Positions 28,261-57,303 of a DNA stretch of 64,000 bases are shown here, piece after piece. Numbering within the stretch: the first letter of the stretch is position 1; the number at the start of each line of letters is the position of its first letter. The notes beneath the pieces were generated by a model, which saw only the letters and a list, made by a program, of their open reading frames with translations, was not told the origin of the DNA and did not search any database. The position numbers were made by a program, and so were the translations under genes. The stretch is from an uncultured Bacilli bacterium (GTDB lineage Bacteria > Bacillota_I > Bacilli_A > RFN20 > CAG-288): the NCBI GenBank assembly GCA_944371605.1, contig CALVXU010000031.1, positions 1-64,000 on the forward strand, in the 5' to 3' direction.

Positions 28261-29514
28261 ATGAGATTTATTAAAAAATATGTAGTTTTATTTTTTGCAT
28301 TGATATTTTGTATGGTCTTTTCATCGGTTGATAGACTAAAAAATCAAAACACATTGATAGGTAATGCCACACAGATAAGAAGAGCTGAGATAGCAAATAG
28401 AACGAATAAAGCTAATCATATAAAACTAAAAAAATATTATATGGATATTTATGCTGAAACTATCATGAAGGGTTTTCCTTTGTGTAGTTTTGAACAATTT
28501 TGCGCCTTATATGAAGAAATGCAACTTAATGATTCTGACTTTATTAAATATATAATTTGTCAATCTCATAACGCTATAAATACAAATGGGATATCTCAAG
28601 CTTCTAGCTCAAGTGAAGATGCAAAATACATTTTATTAAATCAAAATAATAATATGATTACTTCTAATAGTGCATTTAATAATAATTATATTCCTACATA
28701 TTATGCATTTGACTATTCACATATAAAGGAAGGGGATGTTATTATCGAATTTGATGATAGTGGATCGATTGGTACGTATGTAGGTCACGCGGCTATTGTC
28801 TATGATTTAGATAAAAAAATGGAAAATGGTGATACATATATTCAAACAATTGAAGCTGTTGCTAGTGGTATTAAATTTGGATATTTAGATGATTCAAGAA
28901 TTCTTGAATTCAAAGCAGAGGTTTATTCGTTGGATTCTTTTTTATCTAATGAACAAATAAATAAAATTAAATTTTTTGCTGAAGAACAATTAGGAAAGCC
29001 ATACAGTTATGACTATGCTAGTCAAGATTTTGATATTAATACCGATTCTTGGTATTGCTCTGAATTAGTCTATGCAGCATATAGATACTCAGGAGCTGAC
29101 ATTGGAGAATTAACTAGAGCATGGCCGACTGATTTAAAAAATTCTTCTAACTTAAAACCTGCAAGTGTTCCAATTTTGAGAGGCTTAGAAATAACTAACA
29201 ATGGTGGAAGTTTTGCTTGCTGGCACATAGCTGTGACTAATACTGGGTCTCAGCCAATAACGGTGAATTATAATACAAAGATGTGCTTTAAAAATGATGC
29301 TAAAGATTGGAAAAATTTATCTGATATAGAGCAATTTTCTCTTGCTGGCAAAACAAAAAAAGTAGTTGATGTGTATTTTAATTTTTTTGCAGATGCAGTG
29401 GCCTTTTCATTTATGCATGAAGAATATATTTATGTTTCTTATGGATTCCTTTTGGAAGCGCAATACTCTTCTATGGTTTCTTTTAATGAAGTAATTGGGC
29501 CGAATAAAACATGA
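28261..29514 (+). CDS. Exported C92 (YiiX/YebB-like) cysteine hydrolase, module 1
   Basis: 417-residue protein with an N-terminal signal peptide or anchor (hydrophobic 7-23). The central domain (about 150-300) has the order of a permuted NlpC/P60 papain fold: EGDVIIEF, then His176 in GHAAIV, the IEAVASG stretch, then Cys266 in WYCSELVYAAY. In family C92 these are the catalytic pair; members cleave amide or ester bonds, and peptidoglycan or lipid substrates are both possible. The last 110 residues are an unassigned, probably beta-rich domain. Its stop overlaps the next gene as ATGA, so hydrolase and membrane protein are made together. A paralogue with identical His-Cys spacing is at 51622-52899. 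Confidence 0.82.
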   Translation: MRFIKKYVVLFFALIFCMVFSSVDRLKNQNTLIGNATQIRRAEIANRTNKANHIKLKKYYMDIYAETIMKGFPLCSFEQFCALYEEMQLNDSDFIKYIICQSHNAINTNGISQASSSSEDAKYILLNQNNNMITSNSAFNNNYIPTYYAFDYSHIKEGDVIIEFDDSGSIGTYVGHAAIVYDLDKKMENGDTYIQTIEAVASGIKFGYLDDSRILEFKAEVYSLDSFLSNEQINKIKFFAEEQLGKPYSYDYASQDFDINTDSWYCSELVYAAYRYSGADIGELTRAWPTDLKNSSNLKPASVPILRGLEITNNGGSFACWHIAVTNTGSQPITVNYNTKMCFKNDAKDWKNLSDIEQFSLAGKTKKVVDVYFNFFADAVAFSFMHEEYIYVSYGFLLEAQYSSMVSFNEVIGPNKT

Positions 29515-31445
29515 AACAATCTAAAAATAGTAAAAAGCAGCTAATCGATTTGTCTAACTTTCAACTAAAGAATGATTTATATATTTTGAGATTTGGCAAT
29601 GATAATGAATATTGGTCATTTTCTTTTTGTTTATCTCACAATTTATATTGTTGTAAAGATGAAAGTGTTGATAAGTTTTCATCAAAACACAATATCGGAT
29701 ATTTGATGAGAAATAACGAATGTTTATTCGAGTTGTCTATCAGAGAAAACTTTAAAATTTGTTCTGTTGCAACAGATGCCACAATATCTGATCAAATGAT
29801 TGTCAAACTGCTAAATGAAGTCAATTTTGATTGTGATTCCCTACCTAACTTTCTTGACGAATCATGTTTGTCGCTAGATCGAATTAATCTGATCAAACTC
29901 GGACTAGCACTGCTCCTATTAAAGAAACCCACTATTATTTTTATCGACGCTATTTTTCAAGACTTTGATAGCATTGAATGTGATCAATTATTAGCAATAT
30001 TACAAAAATTAAGTGAGACTCAAACAATAATCATAATCGATAAAAAAACAAATCATCATATTTTTAATAATGTAAAGATTATTGACTTTCAAAGTTCTTT
30101 TATAGTCATATCCAATGATAAAAATATCAAAATAAATGATGATTTCTCAATAAACAAAAATAGAACATTTGTTAAATCAGCATTAAAAGTTATTAATCGC
30201 ATTATTTCTGGCTGCAAAATGAAGAGCACTTTATCGAGCTTGTTCTTATCATTTGTTGTTGCTATTCTAGCTTTTTTTATAATTTACAAATGGACGAATT
30301 ATGATACAACGCTGCTTGATCTTTGCTATTCTAATGATATCAATTATGTGATGTTGTCTTCTAGAAGAATGACTTATTATGATCATGGAGGATTTGATGA
30401 TTCGGCCATTGATTTTTCTGAAGAACAATTAAAAACAATTGGTGAATACTGTGAACAAGATTATCTATTTATCAGTCAGTCGATAGATTTTTATAAGAAT
30501 AGCATTGATGATGAATATGAGTTTATGTCTAATGCTTCAGCTTTAATCGATTCTATTGGATATAACACATTTGAACTAGTGCTGAACACTAGCTCAAATC
30601 TTGATTTAAAAAGGGATCCTCGTATTAGCTTTGATATCAATATGCGGTTGCCAAGTTCTGACAATGAGATTGCTTTGACATGGCTTCAGGCAGATTTCTT
30701 GATGAAATATGGATTGATCTCTCATGGCAATCATGTCTTTTTGGATAGTTTAGATGATCTCATCGGCTTAGAAATCAATCATAAGAAAATAACAGGAATC
30801 TACTCGACTGAAGATGAAGACTTCTTTTCTAAACATGTGTCTTTTTCTGATTCTCATGATAAATATTCCGCACATTTTAACCATACTTTTGCCCTAGCCA
30901 GAAGTATAATCTCATTCAAAAAAATAGATTCAGGTGCCAATATCTTAGTAAGATTGTCTGGAGATAAACATAAAGATACGAATTTTATTAAAAGTTTAGA
31001 TAAGCGCGTCTTTGGCATCGGAGATTATGTTTCATTATCAACACCCTTCGATGCTTTCCCATTATCACAAAATATCTTTTCGATTGAATCACCTGGTTAT
31101 GGGTATTTTTTAGGAATTAGTTGGACTGTTTTATTGCTTATCTCTTATTTTATTAAAAGAAATACAATGCGCTTATATACACCATCTCTTTTTTATCGAT
31201 ACCGTTATTTGAAGTCTTATGGTTTTAGTAAACCAAAAGCAGAAATATTTGTTTGGTTTGTGATGTTAGTGCGCATCATCTTTGAATTTTTATCATCACT
31301 TGTATTTATTGGTTTAACATGTTTTGTATTCAATCGACTATCTTATTATTCTTTTTTAAGTCTAGGAGTTCTATCATCAGTATTAGTGTTGTTCATACTA
31401 GTCTTCATAGAAGAATTTATCTATTTTAGGCAATATCGAAAGTGA
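29511..31445 (+). CDS. FtsX/MacB-like permease fused to a degenerate ABC ATPase domain
   Basis: 644-residue protein. Residues about 10-205 look like an ABC ATPase that has lost its active site: IGYLMRNNECLFELSIRENF fits the Q-loop region, CLSLDRINLIKLGLALLLLKK fits the signature helix without LSGGQ, and PTIIFIDAIFQDFDS fits Walker B without the catalytic Glu. The P-loop region is shortened with no GxxxxGKS, and the switch His is replaced (IIIIDKK). Then a membrane helix (about 237-256), a roughly 270-residue outside domain with SDNEIALTWLQADFLMKYG and DDLIGLEI, as in FtsX/MacB-type permeases, and three more helices at the end. By analogy with FtsEX and its hydrolase it may position or control the C92 enzyme made just before it, here without ATP hydrolysis of its own. 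Confidence 0.75.
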   Translation: MKQSKNSKKQLIDLSNFQLKNDLYILRFGNDNEYWSFSFCLSHNLYCCKDESVDKFSSKHNIGYLMRNNECLFELSIRENFKICSVATDATISDQMIVKLLNEVNFDCDSLPNFLDESCLSLDRINLIKLGLALLLLKKPTIIFIDAIFQDFDSIECDQLLAILQKLSETQTIIIIDKKTNHHIFNNVKIIDFQSSFIVISNDKNIKINDDFSINKNRTFVKSALKVINRIISGCKMKSTLSSLFLSFVVAILAFFIIYKWTNYDTTLLDLCYSNDINYVMLSSRRMTYYDHGGFDDSAIDFSEEQLKTIGEYCEQDYLFISQSIDFYKNSIDDEYEFMSNASALIDSIGYNTFELVLNTSSNLDLKRDPRISFDINMRLPSSDNEIALTWLQADFLMKYGLISHGNHVFLDSLDDLIGLEINHKKITGIYSTEDEDFFSKHVSFSDSHDKYSAHFNHTFALARSIISFKKIDSGANILVRLSGDKHKDTNFIKSLDKRVFGIGDYVSLSTPFDAFPLSQNIFSIESPGYGYFLGISWTVLLLISYFIKRNTMRLYTPSLFYRYRYLKSYGFSKPKAEIFVWFVMLVRIIFEFLSSLVFIGLTCFVFNRLSYYSFLSLGVLSSVLVLFILVFIEEFIYFRQYRK

Positions 31446-50204: not shown

Positions 50205-51629
50205 TTATTGGTCCATTAATGATCTATCTGTTTCTTTGGGCTTTTTAGCACATCCTTTTATTACGAGCATTATAAGATAGCATATTGCTGATAAGCATAT
50301 AATAAAGAGAAGTCCATAGCCAAAGGTCATCCAGTTAAGGTAAAGAATCGAATGAGAAAAAAAGCTGTTAGAAATGATCAATAGTAACCAAGTTAGAGGT
50401 AAAGATAATAGATAAAGAATAACCATAATAGGAAAAATTATCGTGCTATATAAAGCAGATGATTTGAAAGTCATAATATTAGATTGCTTGTTGCTTTGTA
50501 AAATTGCATGAATTAGTTTGACTAAAAAAGTAACTATAAAAATTATTATAAATACAATGATAAAAGCCATCGTTAGTAAATAGATTTTAGATGTAAAAGT
50601 ATTTACTGCAGAATCGATAGAGACTAAGTCTGTATTTGAAAAATACACATGCATTTTATAATGATCAAAGCAACTACCTGTATTTACTGTTCCATCAAAA
50701 GAAGAACTATAAAAATTGAGACCATTTAATAATTTTAAGTTTTTTGAATAATCATCTTTTAGTTTGATATATATTCCATAATCTTTTGGTGCTTCTTTTG
50801 AAAAGGTTTTTTGTAAAAAGTTATTAAGCGAACCTTTTAATACAAATACTGAATTATCATAGAAACATGGTGCTTCATCCATTCTAATAGATATATTATT
50901 ATCTACCCATTCTTTATATTCTGGGGTTTCAAAAATGCCACAAATAGTGTGACCAGAGAGTGTTTTGCCTATCAGCTCATCAGGAGAATTAAATTTTAAA
51001 ATTTTACCACCTTTTTCCACTCTATATCCGTACTTTAGATAGTAATCAGCTTTATATGATGTCAATGCTATTTCCGCCTCATTTTCAGGCATATGATTAT
51101 TGATGGTTTTTGAAAGTCTACGATCGGGTGATAGATTCATATAATTATTATTTTTATCGACTTCAAATACTTTGAATTGTTGTCCAGCTGCAGCACAATG
51201 ATAGTAGACTACTTCATTTTCATAAAAGGGTGAATTCTCCCAGTAGTCTAAAAAAACTGCATCTATAGAATCATATGAATATTGAAGTTTAGAATAATAA
51301 GTGATGGCAGGAAGACCATCTAGATACTCATCAATCGCTTTCAGTTGCTTATTTGAAAACATAGGAGTCAGAAAATGATATCCCCATTTGAGAGTGTATT
51401 TTTGATTTTTTGGATAAATGATTGTCTCTCTTCTATCGCTATTGGTTAAAACTGTAGCTGCGATTTGATTGATGTTAGCGCAATATTTCGATATATCACA
51501 AGTGAGAATGGATATAGATATTAAAAATAAAATTATTAATATTGTAGACTTGATTTTATTCTTAAAAAACTCTTTAACAATAGTGATAAAATGTTTTATA
51601 TATTTTTTATCTTTTAATGCTTTATTCAT
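50205..51629 (-). CDS. FtsX/MacB-like membrane protein, module 2
   Basis: 474-residue protein with FtsX-like topology: one helix near the start (about 27-46), an outside domain of about 300 residues with ENEAEIALTSYKADYYLKYG and DELIGKTLSGHTICGIF, then three helices at about 352-374, 390-420 and 432-462. The outside part aligns by motif with the permease half of the 29511-31445 protein, but no ATPase domain is present here and none is encoded beside it. It overlaps the C92 hydrolase gene by eight bases. The role is inferred from the pairing: a membrane partner or regulator of the hydrolase. Confidence 0.7.
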   Translation of the reverse strand: MNKALKDKKYIKHFITIVKEFFKNKIKSTILIILFLISISILTCDISKYCANINQIAATVLTNSDRRETIIYPKNQKYTLKWGYHFLTPMFSNKQLKAIDEYLDGLPAITYYSKLQYSYDSIDAVFLDYWENSPFYENEVVYYHCAAAGQQFKVFEVDKNNNYMNLSPDRRLSKTINNHMPENEAEIALTSYKADYYLKYGYRVEKGGKILKFNSPDELIGKTLSGHTICGIFETPEYKEWVDNNISIRMDEAPCFYDNSVFVLKGSLNNFLQKTFSKEAPKDYGIYIKLKDDYSKNLKLLNGLNFYSSSFDGTVNTGSCFDHYKMHVYFSNTDLVSIDSAVNTFTSKIYLLTMAFIIVFIIIFIVTFLVKLIHAILQSNKQSNIMTFKSSALYSTIIFPIMVILYLLSLPLTWLLLIISNSFFSHSILYLNWMTFGYGLLFIICLSAICYLIMLVIKGCAKKPKETDRSLMDQ

Positions 51630-52899
51630 TATAAATCACCGAGTATCTTACCATTATGAATCTAGAAGTAGCATTAAGAGAATCTGCATAAGTGATGTAT
51701 CGATAAAATTCATCTATATAGCTACAAGCAATAGCAGTCGCAAATAAATTTTCAGTGATTTCTACATCAGCTGATGAATAAGCACTTATATTCACTAAAT
51801 CGATGTCTTTCAAATTATTAGTATTCCAATATTGCGCATCTTCTAAGTTGCACATTTTTGAATTATACATGGCAGTTAAATCAACAGGATTGTTATTTAT
51901 AATAGAAATCGTCCAAGTAGAGCCGTTTTTATTTACTATTGCTAACCTTAAATTTTTTGGCTTTATAATAATTTCTCCAACCATATCACTAAGATAAATA
52001 TGAATTGGCCAAACTGCATTGGTCTCTTCTGTTTTCCCTATGTAGTAGCTTATATCAATTTCAGCATACATATAGGCCGCCCATACTAATTCAGAACAAT
52101 ACCAGTCTTCTGAGTCTATATTGCTATGAGCTTTTCTATCGTAATCAGGGCAATATTTTTTTCCTAATTGTTGTTCAGCAAAATAAATGACTAGAGGAAT
52201 ATAGCTCATTGTTGGTGCAGTTGTTCTCAAAATTTTTACACCAAAGTCAACTATTCTTTGGTCATCTAAGAATCCATAATTAACACCGCTTCCAACCGCT
52301 TCTATAGTTTGAATAAAATAACGCCCATCAGTTGTTTTTTGATCAAGTTTTGTGATCAAAGCATTATGACCAGCATTAAAAAAAATGGTCACAGTTTCAT
52401 AGATGATATCTCCATTCATAAGTATTTTTACTAATGAATCATAATCATAATAGATAGGTAGCTCTTTAAAAACATCAGTCGGTGTTTCATCATACGTTGT
52501 TGAATTCAATACGTAGTAAGCATCTGAACTAGAACTCGAAACAGTGGCATATTTGGCTTTTTTAGAACTGCACATACTGATATTTTGAAATTCCTCTAAA
52601 GTATTAGCGTGTCGCCACTTTAGACAATATTCTGGAAGTGAAAAATTATATTCATAATACAACTCACAAAAAGTTGAAAAATCAATGAAGCTATTTTGCA
52701 ATTGTTTTTTTTCGATTAGAATTGGCTCATAATAATTCCAAAAAACATCTTTGTATGAGAATACTTCTTCATTATTTTGATTCTTGCTAACCAAATGATG
52801 TGGGATATTGGAAAGATTTATTGTAGGTTTTTTCTCTTGACTTGAGAACAGCATAAAAAGAGCTAAGAAAATAGAACAAAAAATGCGACATAATTTCAT
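51622..52899 (-). CDS. Exported C92 (YiiX/YebB-like) cysteine hydrolase, module 2
   Basis: 425-residue paralogue of the 28261-29514 protein. Signal peptide (5-20), unassigned N-terminal helical part, then the permuted papain-fold domain with His178 in GHNALI, TIEAVGSGVNYGFLDD and Cys268 in WYCSELVWAAY. The spacing between the two catalytic residues (90) equals that in module 1, and the flanking text is closely similar. A C-terminal beta-rich domain follows. AGAGGTGG precedes ATG. Substrate unknown; peptidoglycan, lipid or a peptide are all open. Confidence 0.82.
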   Translation of the reverse strand: MKLCRIFCSIFLALFMLFSSQEKKPTINLSNIPHHLVSKNQNNEEVFSYKDVFWNYYEPILIEKKQLQNSFIDFSTFCELYYEYNFSLPEYCLKWRHANTLEEFQNISMCSSKKAKYATVSSSSSDAYYVLNSTTYDETPTDVFKELPIYYDYDSLVKILMNGDIIYETVTIFFNAGHNALITKLDQKTTDGRYFIQTIEAVGSGVNYGFLDDQRIVDFGVKILRTTAPTMSYIPLVIYFAEQQLGKKYCPDYDRKAHSNIDSEDWYCSELVWAAYMYAEIDISYYIGKTEETNAVWPIHIYLSDMVGEIIIKPKNLRLAIVNKNGSTWTISIINNNPVDLTAMYNSKMCNLEDAQYWNTNNLKDIDLVNISAYSSADVEITENLFATAIACSYIDEFYRYITYADSLNATSRFIMVRYSVIYNE

Positions 52900-53269: not shown

Positions 53270-55360
53270 TTAGTCTAATTCAGCTTTACCGATCCAAAGC
53301 TCATAATAGCGTCCTTTTTGAGCGAGAAGCTGCTCATGAGTTCCTCTTTCGATGATTTGGCCATGATCCATCACCATGATGCAATCAGCATATCTGATAG
53401 TTGATAAACGATGAGCGATGACGAAAGTGGTTTTATCCTTCATGATATTATCCATACCATGTGAGATCAAACGTTCGGTTCTAGTATCAACAGAAGAAGT
53501 GGCTTCATCTAATATTAAAATCGGAGGATTAGATACTGCACATCTAGCGATTGAAAGCAATTGCTTTTGACCTTGTGATAAAGAAGCATTAGCGGCATCG
53601 ATATAGGTTTTATAGCCATTTGGTAATTTTTTGATGAAAGCATCGGCACATGCTACTTTAGCAGCTTCTTCGCATTCTTTATCTGTAGCCTTTAGCCTAC
53701 CGAACCGAATGTTATCATAAACAGTTCCTGAGAAAAGATGGGTGTCTTGTAAAACTAATGTCATTGAACGGCGCATAGATACTCTATCGATATCTTTTAA
53801 GTCGATGCCATCGATGGTGATTTTACCGCTGTCGATATCATAGAAACGCGTTAGCATATTGGTGATAGTGGTTTTACCTGCGCCCGTAGAACCTACTAAA
53901 GCGATTCTTTGGCCGGGATGCGCATATAAAGTTACGTCTTTTAAGACTGGTTGACCAGGTACATAAGAGAAATAAACATGCTCCATTCTGACATCGCCTA
54001 AGACCGGCTTTGTTTCCATGCCATTTGTCCAATAATACTTACCATCCTCAGCTTTAAAGGATTTCCAACTGGCTTTTTGTAAACTAGGCTCAGGCTGTTG
54101 GTCCATCATTTGGAAGATTCTTTCTGCACCTGCTAAAGAGGCTTGTATCATCGTCAACATATTAGAAATTGAGTTGAAAGGTCTAGCTAGCATTCTCAAG
54201 AAGACAATGTATGACATCAAAGACCCGATAGAAACTATAAAGCCCCAGCGAGTATCAGTAGCGATTAAAATCGAACCGATGATTGCGACTAATGCTGTTC
54301 CGATATTATTGATATTATTGATTATTGGAATATTGATGGATGAAAGATAAACAGAACGGCGATTATGAAGTGTATGTCTATAATCGATCGATTTGAATAA
54401 TTCAGACATATCCTCTTCTTTTGAAAAGCATTTAACAACTTTCAAGCCAGCGAGAACTTCTTCGGCTACGCCATTAAACTCTCCCATAGAAACTTGAGTT
54501 TCTGAGAAGGCTGAAACAGAACGATGAACGTTGAAGGCGACAATACCTACCCCTATGAGTTCTAGAGCGATACAAATCAAAGCTAAGAACCAATTTAAAA
54601 TAAAAATGAAGACAAGAATCCCAGCCAAAAGGATGATGGAAGTGAAGATTTCCATGATACCAGTATTGAACAATTGTGCTAGGTTATCGACATCATTGGT
54701 GAATCTCGACATGATATCACCATGTGGCGTATTATCAAAATAGCGTAAAGGCAGTGTTTGAAGTTTATCGAACATATCATTTCTTAATCTCATCAATGAG
54801 GCGGTTCCGATTCTTGTCATCAAATAAACTTGACTTGCAGAGAGAAGAAAACCGATGACGTAGCAAGCCATGGTGATTAAGATGATGATGCCTAATATGG
54901 TCAATGCTTGATCACTGGCGTTACTACTCGCCCAATTGACTTGATCAAAGATGAATTTATATAATCCCATTTGATTATTGATATATTTATCTGCGTATCC
55001 GGAAAAAGAGCCGCCCATTAACCAATTGCCTGTGGCTGCATAGACTGCTGGTTGCAAAAGCGCATCGACCAAAGGAGCAGCTATAAAGCCGCCTAAGAGA
55101 TTGATCAATACCATCAAAATGGTGATGAAAGTGACCAAAAGCAAACGCCATTTATCAGGACCGATATAATGAAATACACGTAGTAACGAATGCCAAGAAT
55201 GTTTTGGCTTGCCATAGCCCTTCTTTCTTCTTGAATAAGAAGCGGTTATTTCTTTATAACCTTCTTTTCCGCAGGAGTACTGAATTTGTACACCATTTAT
55301 AGTCGGGCCTTCTCCACTAGCATCAAAGCCATTATAGTTATACTCATTATTCTTCATCAT
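53270..55360 (-). CDS. ABC exporter half with intact ATP site
   Basis: 696-residue type IV ABC exporter subunit: 70-residue soluble N-terminal tail, six membrane helices (about 75-390), ATPase domain with Walker A GSTGAGKTT, signature SLSQGQKQLL, Walker B ILILDEATSSVD (catalytic Glu present) and switch FVIAHRL. It pairs with the gene just upstream (four-base overlap) as a heterodimer of the LmrCD/BmrCD kind, which exports drugs, lipids or peptides; the cargo is unknown. ATG 55357 is a possible start with better ribosome-site spacing. Confidence 0.92.
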   Translation of the reverse strand: MMKNNEYNYNGFDASGEGPTINGVQIQYSCGKEGYKEITASYSRRKKGYGKPKHSWHSLLRVFHYIGPDKWRLLLVTFITILMVLINLLGGFIAAPLVDALLQPAVYAATGNWLMGGSFSGYADKYINNQMGLYKFIFDQVNWASSNASDQALTILGIIILITMACYVIGFLLSASQVYLMTRIGTASLMRLRNDMFDKLQTLPLRYFDNTPHGDIMSRFTNDVDNLAQLFNTGIMEIFTSIILLAGILVFIFILNWFLALICIALELIGVGIVAFNVHRSVSAFSETQVSMGEFNGVAEEVLAGLKVVKCFSKEEDMSELFKSIDYRHTLHNRRSVYLSSINIPIINNINNIGTALVAIIGSILIATDTRWGFIVSIGSLMSYIVFLRMLARPFNSISNMLTMIQASLAGAERIFQMMDQQPEPSLQKASWKSFKAEDGKYYWTNGMETKPVLGDVRMEHVYFSYVPGQPVLKDVTLYAHPGQRIALVGSTGAGKTTITNMLTRFYDIDSGKITIDGIDLKDIDRVSMRRSMTLVLQDTHLFSGTVYDNIRFGRLKATDKECEEAAKVACADAFIKKLPNGYKTYIDAANASLSQGQKQLLSIARCAVSNPPILILDEATSSVDTRTERLISHGMDNIMKDKTTFVIAHRLSTIRYADCIMVMDHGQIIERGTHEQLLAQKGRYYELWIGKAELD

Positions 55361-57303
55361 TCGACTCCTTTGGATTGAATAGCATCAATCTCACGATAAA
55401 TTGCACAATTTTGCAAAAGTTCTTGATGGGTGCCGATACCAGCTTGTTTTCCATTATCTAAAACGAGAATCTGATCACAATTTTTAACAGAATCTATTCT
55501 TTGAGCGATGATAAAAATAGTCGTATCTTTGAGTTTGGTACTAAATTGCTTTTGGATACGTCTAGAAGTTTCCATATCGCAGGCCGAAGTTGAATCATCC
55601 AAGATTAAAATTTTCGGCTTTTTGATGACAGCTCTAGCGATACAAAGACGTTGCTTTTGACCACCAGAAACTGATTTGCCTCCTTGGACAACAGGAGTGT
55701 CTAAGCCATCTTTAAATCCTCTGACAAAGTCAGCGGCTTGAGCTATTTCTAAAGCTTCCCAAATCTCTTCATCAGTCGCATCCTTCTTGCCCCAAAGAAT
55801 ATTTGATCTGATAGTGCCAGTGAAAAGAATGTTATTTTGTAAGACTACACCGATGTCTTGTCTCAAAGCAGTGACAGAATAGTCTTTGACATCATGATCA
55901 GCAATTTTGACTGTGCCGGTCAATGGATCGTAAAGACGAGGAATCAAGTTGACTAATGATGATTTTCCTGAACCAGTGCCACCGACGATTCCAATCGTTT
56001 GTCCTGAAGGGATATCTAAAGTGATAGGACCAACAGCTACTTTTTTTGCATCATTCACATATGAGAAGATAACGTCTTTAAATTCGACATGGCCATCTTT
56101 AAGAGTGTCGGGATCAAAATCAATCGTCTTTGGCTTCGGGTCGTAAGAAATATCGATCTTTTCGACTAAAACTCGATCGATTCTCTCTTTGCTAGCTTCA
56201 GCACGACCATAAAATTGGAATAGAGTTGACAAAAATGAGAAAGCCATTGTTAAAACAGCAGTGAAAGAAGTCAGTATTGATAGCTCACCAGCGTCGAAAA
56301 GATCAACACCATTATTCATAATCTGCCATATCTCATTGCCAGTAGCGGTGTTGATCATCGAAAAACCACCGAAATATTGGATGAGACCGATAGTCACATT
56401 GATAGCTAATGTCGTGATAGCAGTCGATAAGCCCATCTTGGAGACTGATGAATAGCTGATGATAGTTAAGTTATCATTAGAACGGGCAAATCTTTTATCC
56501 ATATAAGATTCGCGGCAAAAAGCTTTGACTTCTCTGATACCATCAGTATCTTCTTCTACATTGCGATTGACGTTATCAAGAGCTGACTGCGTCATGATGA
56601 ATTCAGGTCTAGTCTTTTTAATGATGGTGATGATGACAATAAAAGCGATCACACTCAAAGGGAGAGTGATGAGACCGATAGCCCAGTTGAGTGAGAAGAT
56701 GAAAGCAAAGCAAAAGAGAACGACTAGCGTTTGCTTGAAACCCATTCTCACAAGCATCAAAACGAAGAAACGAATATTATTACAGTCATTGGAAAGCATG
56801 GTTGTCAACTTAGAAACAGGGAAATGAGAGATATTGGAAAATGAGAATTGTTCAGCTTTCCAAAAAATAGTATTTCTTAATCTCTCGACAAAATCACTTG
56901 AGATTTTGGCAGAAAGCTTCATACCGATTGTTTGAAAAACGATGGCGATTAAGCCACATCCAATCATAAGGCCACCATATAACCAGATATAATACATCGC
57001 CGGCTGATTAAAGCCACTTCCGCTGATGATGGGCTGAGGTTGACCAAGACTATCCAAAGCACCATATCCTTCAAGTCCATTTCTGATGAGCATACCGCTG
57101 AGATATGGAATCATCAATTCACAAAAAGCGTCGACGAGGATGACGATGAAATCGATGATGATCAATTTATAGGATGGCTTTAAGCATTCCCAATAAATTT
57201 TAAGTGTCTCTTTAGCGTCTTTTTTATCAGCTATGGCGTCTTCTTTGTTATAGTGCAAGTCAATATAAGCTTGCGCTTTCATCTCTTTGATTTTTTGATT
57301 CAT
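55357..57303 (-). CDS. ABC exporter half with degenerate ATP site
   Basis: 648-residue partner subunit. Six helices (about 50-350), Walker A GGTGSGKSS, signature SVSGGQKQRL, but Walker B reads ILILDDSTSACD with Asp in place of the catalytic Glu, and the switch His is Gln (IIAQRI). This is the known asymmetric arrangement of heterodimeric exporters, where one composite ATP site is inactive. A cre-like site lies about 70 bases upstream. Confidence 0.92.
   Translation of the reverse strand: MNQKIKEMKAQAYIDLHYNKEDAIADKKDAKETLKIYWECLKPSYKLIIIDFIVILVDAFCELMIPYLSGMLIRNGLEGYGALDSLGQPQPIISGSGFNQPAMYYIWLYGGLMIGCGLIAIVFQTIGMKLSAKISSDFVERLRNTIFWKAEQFSFSNISHFPVSKLTTMLSNDCNNIRFFVLMLVRMGFKQTLVVLFCFAFIFSLNWAIGLITLPLSVIAFIVIITIIKKTRPEFIMTQSALDNVNRNVEEDTDGIREVKAFCRESYMDKRFARSNDNLTIISYSSVSKMGLSTAITTLAINVTIGLIQYFGGFSMINTATGNEIWQIMNNGVDLFDAGELSILTSFTAVLTMAFSFLSTLFQFYGRAEASKERIDRVLVEKIDISYDPKPKTIDFDPDTLKDGHVEFKDVIFSYVNDAKKVAVGPITLDIPSGQTIGIVGGTGSGKSSLVNLIPRLYDPLTGTVKIADHDVKDYSVTALRQDIGVVLQNNILFTGTIRSNILWGKKDATDEEIWEALEIAQAADFVRGFKDGLDTPVVQGGKSVSGGQKQRLCIARAVIKKPKILILDDSTSACDMETSRRIQKQFSTKLKDTTIFIIAQRIDSVKNCDQILVLDNGKQAGIGTHQELLQNCAIYREIDAIQSKGVE

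Follow-up and report, generated by a model that had tools for sequence, protein, structure and literature searches.

A retained pseudo-ATPase domain in a putative MacB/FtsX-type permease encoded directly downstream of a papain-fold hydrolase in an uncultured Bacilli bacterium

We analysed a stretch of 64,000 nucleotides (the window) from the genome of an uncultured Bacilli bacterium. Two genes on its forward strand encode a putative secreted enzyme and a membrane protein in which a degenerate ABC ATPase domain is fused to a permease. The stop codon of the hydrolase gene and the start codon of the permease gene overlap by 4 nt (ATGA). The two proteins contain the following features, all on the + strand.

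28261..29514, +: permuted papain-like C92/YiiX-type enzyme, 417 aa, with an N-terminal signal-like helix (PF05708, AlphaFold2 (AF2) model, invariant His and Cys)
28786..28788, +: putative catalytic His176 (GHAAIVY), invariant in alignment A1 and assigned by analogy with YiiX (PMC3142127)
29056..29058, +: putative catalytic Cys266 (WYCSEL), invariant in alignment A1
29158..29487, +: tail domain of about 95 aa, an Ig-like beta sandwich (21-sequence alignment A6, AF2 model)
29511..31445, +: pseudo-ATPase/FtsX-MacB-type permease fusion, 644 aa (open ORF)
29568..30110, +: degenerate ABC domain, residues 20-200 (ABC-model matches, alignment, profile, Foldseek, and the selection test given below)
29589..29621, +: former P-loop, now RFGNDNEYWSF (alignment)
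29709..29711, +: former Q-loop Gln, now Arg67 (alignment)
29868..29882, +: former LSGGQ signature, now LSLDR, residues 120-124 (alignment)
29934..29951, +: Walker B strand IIFIDA, with Asp146 kept and the catalytic Glu replaced by Ala147 (alignment)
30042..30044, +: former switch His, now Lys178 (alignment)
30123..31442, +: MacB/FtsX-type permease with TM1 (236-261), outer domain (262-527) and TM2-4 (528-643) (AF2 model, family profile)

The upstream protein matched PF05708 over the cut-off (E 6e-10), and its AF2 model matched YiiX (2if6) with an E-value of 2.6e-5. It has the permuted papain fold with His before Cys of Peptidase C92 (YaeF/YiiX). Its tail domain is all-beta in the model, has no Pfam family and is marked by invariant N, N, K, C and A residues across the 21 sequences of A6. 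Tails of this kind are attached to C92 enzymes, subtilases, trypsin-like proteases and an alpha/beta-hydrolase, sometimes in tandem copies. They are concentrated in the order of this bacterium, where 24 of 279 genomes carry one; outside the order, an even draw of 395 genomes of the class gave a single case, G408, in which the gene after a C92 enzyme with tail encodes an ABC-FtsX fusion that has a P-loop and LSGGE (L155).

The first-pass annotation, made from the window's sequence, had described the N-terminus of the 29511 protein as an ABC ATPase-like domain that had lost its catalytic motifs and was fused to a permease. Profile searches and alignment confirmed this, and structure modelling agreed with it. 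When the N-terminal 223 aa were searched, TIGR03608 matched residues 58-177 (E 5e-7) and TIGR03740 also matched (E 9e-7); together, ABC ATPase models cover residues 58-210, and no Pfam ABC model reports the protein. The score against TIGR03608 (lactococcin-972-group ABC) was 29 bits, below the curated cut-off of 255, which the intact relatives also miss with 177-186 bits. Alignment with 12 intact relatives gave the status of each motif and bore out the reported shortening of the P-loop region and the absence of LSGGQ, catalytic Glu and switch His. The GxSGSGKTT of the relatives is replaced by a stretch with no GK, so that the P-loop lysine is gone, and the region ahead of the Q-loop is shorter than in the relatives. 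The Q-loop text, thought to have been kept, is recognisable as IGYLMRN, but the glutamine itself has given way to arginine. The Walker B strand is indeed kept; its aspartate is the sole catalytic motif residue left, and the position of the catalytic Glu, Ala in this protein, is Asn in the ortholog from genome G012. The two remaining forward frames of 29479-29760 were searched for a P-loop hidden by a frameshift, and none was found.

The AF2 model of the 29511 protein (mean pLDDT 74, from a 17-row alignment) was compared with the PDB by Foldseek. MacB ranked first as a full-length match (5lil, E 2.5e-16, and also 5nik) over about 690 columns, with TM-scores of about 0.47 overall. The N-terminal ABC part alone matched FtsE, YbbA, BceA and LptB at about 1e-6. 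Intact homologues were present in the alignment behind the model and favour it. The permease part matched its family profile with an E-value of 6e-133, the sequence itself being in that profile. With moderate confidence, the chain follows the MacB-type (type VII) order of ABC domain, TM1, large outer domain and TM2-4, and a MacB-like fold is supported rather than proven. In the alignment, the 29511 protein lacks the Walker A motif, LSGGQ, catalytic Glu and switch His of a functional MacB-type ATPase, and this loss of motifs predicts that it would not carry out ATP-driven mechanotransmission.

We then asked how the eroded domain evolves, using pairwise codon maximum likelihood on a single species pair, the 29511 unit and its ortholog in G012, another species of the genus. 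Residues 1-205 gave an omega of 0.255 (likelihood-ratio test against 1, p 9e-7) and residues 56-200 gave 0.242, near the 0.201 of the permease part; the upstream hydrolase gene gave 0.101, and the NG86 estimate agreed. The G012 ortholog is the closest relative of the 29511 protein (87% identical), is equally degenerate and has an open frame. A paralog in the genome that contains the window, C9, with 28% identity, is likewise open with all motifs eroded. The earlier proposal that the domain is a retained pseudo-ATPase rather than a decaying one is thus supported by purifying selection, by the eroded ortholog and paralog and by the MacB-like model, and recent decay is disfavoured. Homologues with an intact P-loop, which had been named as a possible sign of recent decay, do exist (G003, G243, G186 and others), but they are all distant, being less than 30% identical to the 29511 protein; the erosion is therefore not recent. 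To the first-pass annotation the present analysis adds the hydrolase gene as partner, a second copy in the window that has no ATPase, and the mostly intact ATPase of the relatives.

Divergence along 28261-31445 from the corresponding G012 locus (L094) is very uneven. In the hydrolase, the first 119 codons have diverged strongly (t 2.4) and the tail little (t 0.18), and the last 144 codons of the permease differ by just 7 nucleotides. This pattern suggests recombination or diversifying heads.

The window contains a second unit of the same kind, encoded on the opposite strand.

51622..52899, -: another secreted enzyme with C92 head and tail, 425 aa, sharing 33% identity with the first (c92 profile 1e-75, tail profile 5e-44, both profiles including this sequence)
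50205..51629, -: another permease of this family, 474 aa, with no ABC domain (profile and sequence comparison)

The start of this permease overlaps the stop of its hydrolase by 8 nt. All three permease-family members found in this genome (29511, 50205 and C9) are ATP-dead, and no intact member of the family was found in the genome, which is about 90% complete. Standalone ABC ATPases and other MacB-like fusions are present. C9 has no adjacent hydrolase gene of the C92/tail kind. In the window, 53270-57303 on the - strand encodes two adjoining ABC_membrane/ABC_tran exporters, probably a heterodimer, the first of which gave no LSGGQ match in a simple motif scan. No PBP transpeptidase domain was found in the whole genome (G000), while 10 of 14 control genomes have one, and the organism may be without a peptidoglycan wall. 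FtsX_ECD (PF18075) was not found at the 29511 locus; the genome has one sub-threshold match elsewhere. A role on the cell's own peptidoglycan is therefore unlikely, and a peptidoglycan amidase acting on the cell's wall under FtsEX-like control was disfavoured because no PBP transpeptidase was found in this genome of about 90% completeness.

We searched neighbourhoods across the order with a profile for each of the four parts; founding sequences were included, and their E-values are not independent evidence. The gene directly after a tail-bearing hydrolase was an ABC-FtsX fusion, or an ATP-dead or ATPase-less form of it, twice in the window and also in G012, G011, G062, G243 and G186; a fusion or derivative likewise follows in G235, G037, G223, G177, G232, G233, G237 and G061. 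In the pairs measured, the permease starts about -14 to +70 nt from the hydrolase stop. The ABC-FtsX partner, whether of a C92, subtilase or trypsin-like head, usually has an intact ATPase, and at two loci (L104 and L111) one hydrolase is followed by two large ABC-FtsX fusions. Other tail-bearing proteins have different neighbours. At L095, L097, L098, L099 and L100 a small multi-TM protein is encoded a few to 34 nt after a C92-tail enzyme, the multi-TM proteins of L098 and L099 being related to each other, and at L103, L108 and L109 a tail-bearing protein precedes a putative lipoprotein. Neither the small multi-TM partners nor the lipoproteins gave a convincing Pfam family, and a search for kinship of the multi-TM proteins with the permease found none. 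The partner of a tail protein therefore need not be of the MacB type.

The state of the ATPase varies widely among these relatives. Its motifs are intact in G003, G243, G228, G186 (two proteins), G235 (two), G037, G223, G177 and G061. In G004, whose sequence ends at a contig end, DEP is kept and LSGGQ is gone; erosion is complete in the 29511 protein, its G012 ortholog and C9. G062 has a split ORF, with a degenerate ABC fragment of 161 aa and a separate permease, and the ATPase is absent from the window's 50205 protein, G011 and G074. The G074 locus (L150, 7023-8396) and that of G062 (L091) are the same locus, with flanks 97% identical; a deletion of about 1.6 kb in G074 took away the ABC fragment and the greater part of the hydrolase, and the permease ORF is still open. 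The intact ATPase is probably ancestral, since it occurs in several families and in another order as well. On the permease tree, parsimony needs three changes, but the AU test does not reject one single clade (p 0.45) and the deep branching is poorly supported, so that loss may have happened once or several times.

How might such a unit work? In the reading that we favour, which we rate as falling somewhat short of an even chance, the products of the two genes form a hydrolase complex at the cell surface, in which the permease is an ATP-independent anchor, scaffold or gate and the pseudo-ATPase a structural cap. The upstream gene would yield a Sec-exported C92/YiiX-type papain-fold enzyme, and the MacB/FtsX-type permease encoded downstream would be made in translational coupling with it. 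By analogy, the Ig-like tail of the enzyme may dock on the outer domain of the permease. In relatives with an apparently working ATPase, this outer domain would be expected to move by mechanotransmission, as in YbbAP-TesA or FtsEX. In the present lineage, ATP binding and hydrolysis would have been lost, the permease would dock or gate the enzyme without ATP, and the pseudo-ATPase would be kept as a cytoplasmic scaffold, probably one that stabilises a dimer. The substrate could be a membrane lipid or a lipoprotein acyl chain, a guess from YiiX, the pocket of which holds a fatty acid (PMC3142127), and from LnsA. The recurring adjacency, the purifying selection, the three ATP-dead members in this genome, the MacB-like and YiiX-like folds and the precedent of YbbAP-TesA all count for this complex. 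So does the persistence of the unit without its ATPase (50205-52899 in the window, and G011) or with a degenerate one in a separate ORF (G062). Counted against it are the unrelated partners at other loci (L095, L097-L100; L103, L108, L109), C9 with no hydrolase neighbour, the standalone ABC ATPases of the genome, which could supply the activity in trans, and the G074 permease that outlasted its hydrolase.

The strongest rival is self-protection, in which the membrane partner would protect the secreting cell against its own hydrolase by binding the enzyme or its target, and ATP would be dispensable for protecting the target. It ranks first among the rivals because the position after the hydrolase gene is taken by membrane proteins of several unrelated sorts, and we regard it as unlikely, at roughly one chance in four. 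Variable catalytic heads on one conserved tail, together with unrelated membrane or lipoprotein partners, resemble enzyme/immunity cassettes, and the best ABC match is to the lactococcin-972-group transporter model TIGR03608. However, the pairs of large fusions after one hydrolase exceed what simple immunity would need, and the family permease occurs with no hydrolase in G074 and C9.

Two further explanations concern the ABC domain itself. The pseudo-ATPase could be regulatory, or could pair with an intact ATPase or MacB-like protein from another locus in a mixed complex that is still driven by ATP. Degenerate nucleotide sites are known, and common, in heterodimeric ABC exporters, and candidate partners are present among the standalone ATPases and other MacB-like fusions. 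We nevertheless hold this to be improbable: the genome gave no intact member of the 29511 permease family, though at its completeness a partner may be missing, and sister units persist without any ABC domain. Slow decay, in which a transporter is being lost and its ABC domain disappears first, appears less probable still. It draws on the graded series from G003 (intact) through G004 (signature lost, DEP kept), the 29511 protein and C9 (eroded) and G062 (split) to G011 and 50205 (absent), and on the deletion in G074. The series, however, mixes distant lineages and is not one timeline; moreover, the omega across the eroded domain and the frames that have stayed open in both species and in a distant paralog speak against decay.

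Extending the favoured reading of an ATP-independent hydrolase complex, we tentatively propose, as a possibility weaker than the complex itself, that a MacB/FtsX-type lineage gave up ATP. In this surface system, centred on the order, the Ig-like tail would plug interchangeable secreted hydrolases into a passive membrane receptor or gate, with the pseudo-ATPase selected as a cytoplasmic scaffold. Published descriptions treat type VII ABC proteins as machines powered by ATP, and the 29511 unit suggests such a machine now working without ATP. Next to one kind of secreted enzyme the ATPase can be intact, eroded or absent, and this natural series makes it possible to study the function of the permease part in the absence of ATP. 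The undescribed tail domain is, in addition, a marker of surface hydrolases and of the membrane proteins paired with them, in uncultured bacteria possibly devoid of a wall. No pseudo-ATPase FtsX/MacB proteins were found in the open-access papers searched, nor was any precedent found there for a MacB-type fusion that has lost nearly all motifs, is under purifying selection and sits in a recurring hydrolase unit.

The function of type VII ABC proteins is set by the extracytoplasmic partner, and YbbAP-TesA of E. coli pairs such a protein with a periplasmic lipid hydrolase (PMC12646458). The 29511 unit similarly combines a type VII permease fold with an extracytoplasmic hydrolase from co-located genes, a complex of the two being proposed here from gene coupling. 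In YbbAP-TesA the ATPase works and is a separate protein, and YbbAP has 10 TM helices, whereas here a dead ATPase is fused to a permease of 4 TM helices and the enzyme has a papain fold with an Ig-like tail. FtsEX, with peptidoglycan hydrolases (CwlO, PcsB, RipC) or the activator EnvC, likewise joins an FtsX-type permease to an extracytoplasmic hydrolase system; FtsE, however, is an active ATPase, and with no PBP transpeptidase found in this genome the cell's own wall is an unlikely substrate here. LnsA of Staphylococcus aureus, a permuted NlpC/P60 (YiiX-like) enzyme, depends on a membrane protein, LnsB, for lipoprotein N-acylation, but LnsB is remotely CAAX-protease-like rather than FtsX-like and the lns genes are noncontiguous (PMC7387801). 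MacB (5lil, 5nik), the top full-length fold match, has the same one-chain order of N-terminal ABC, TM1, outer domain and TM2-4; it differs from the 29511 protein in keeping its catalytic motifs and in having MacA/TolC, rather than a hydrolase, as its neighbour.
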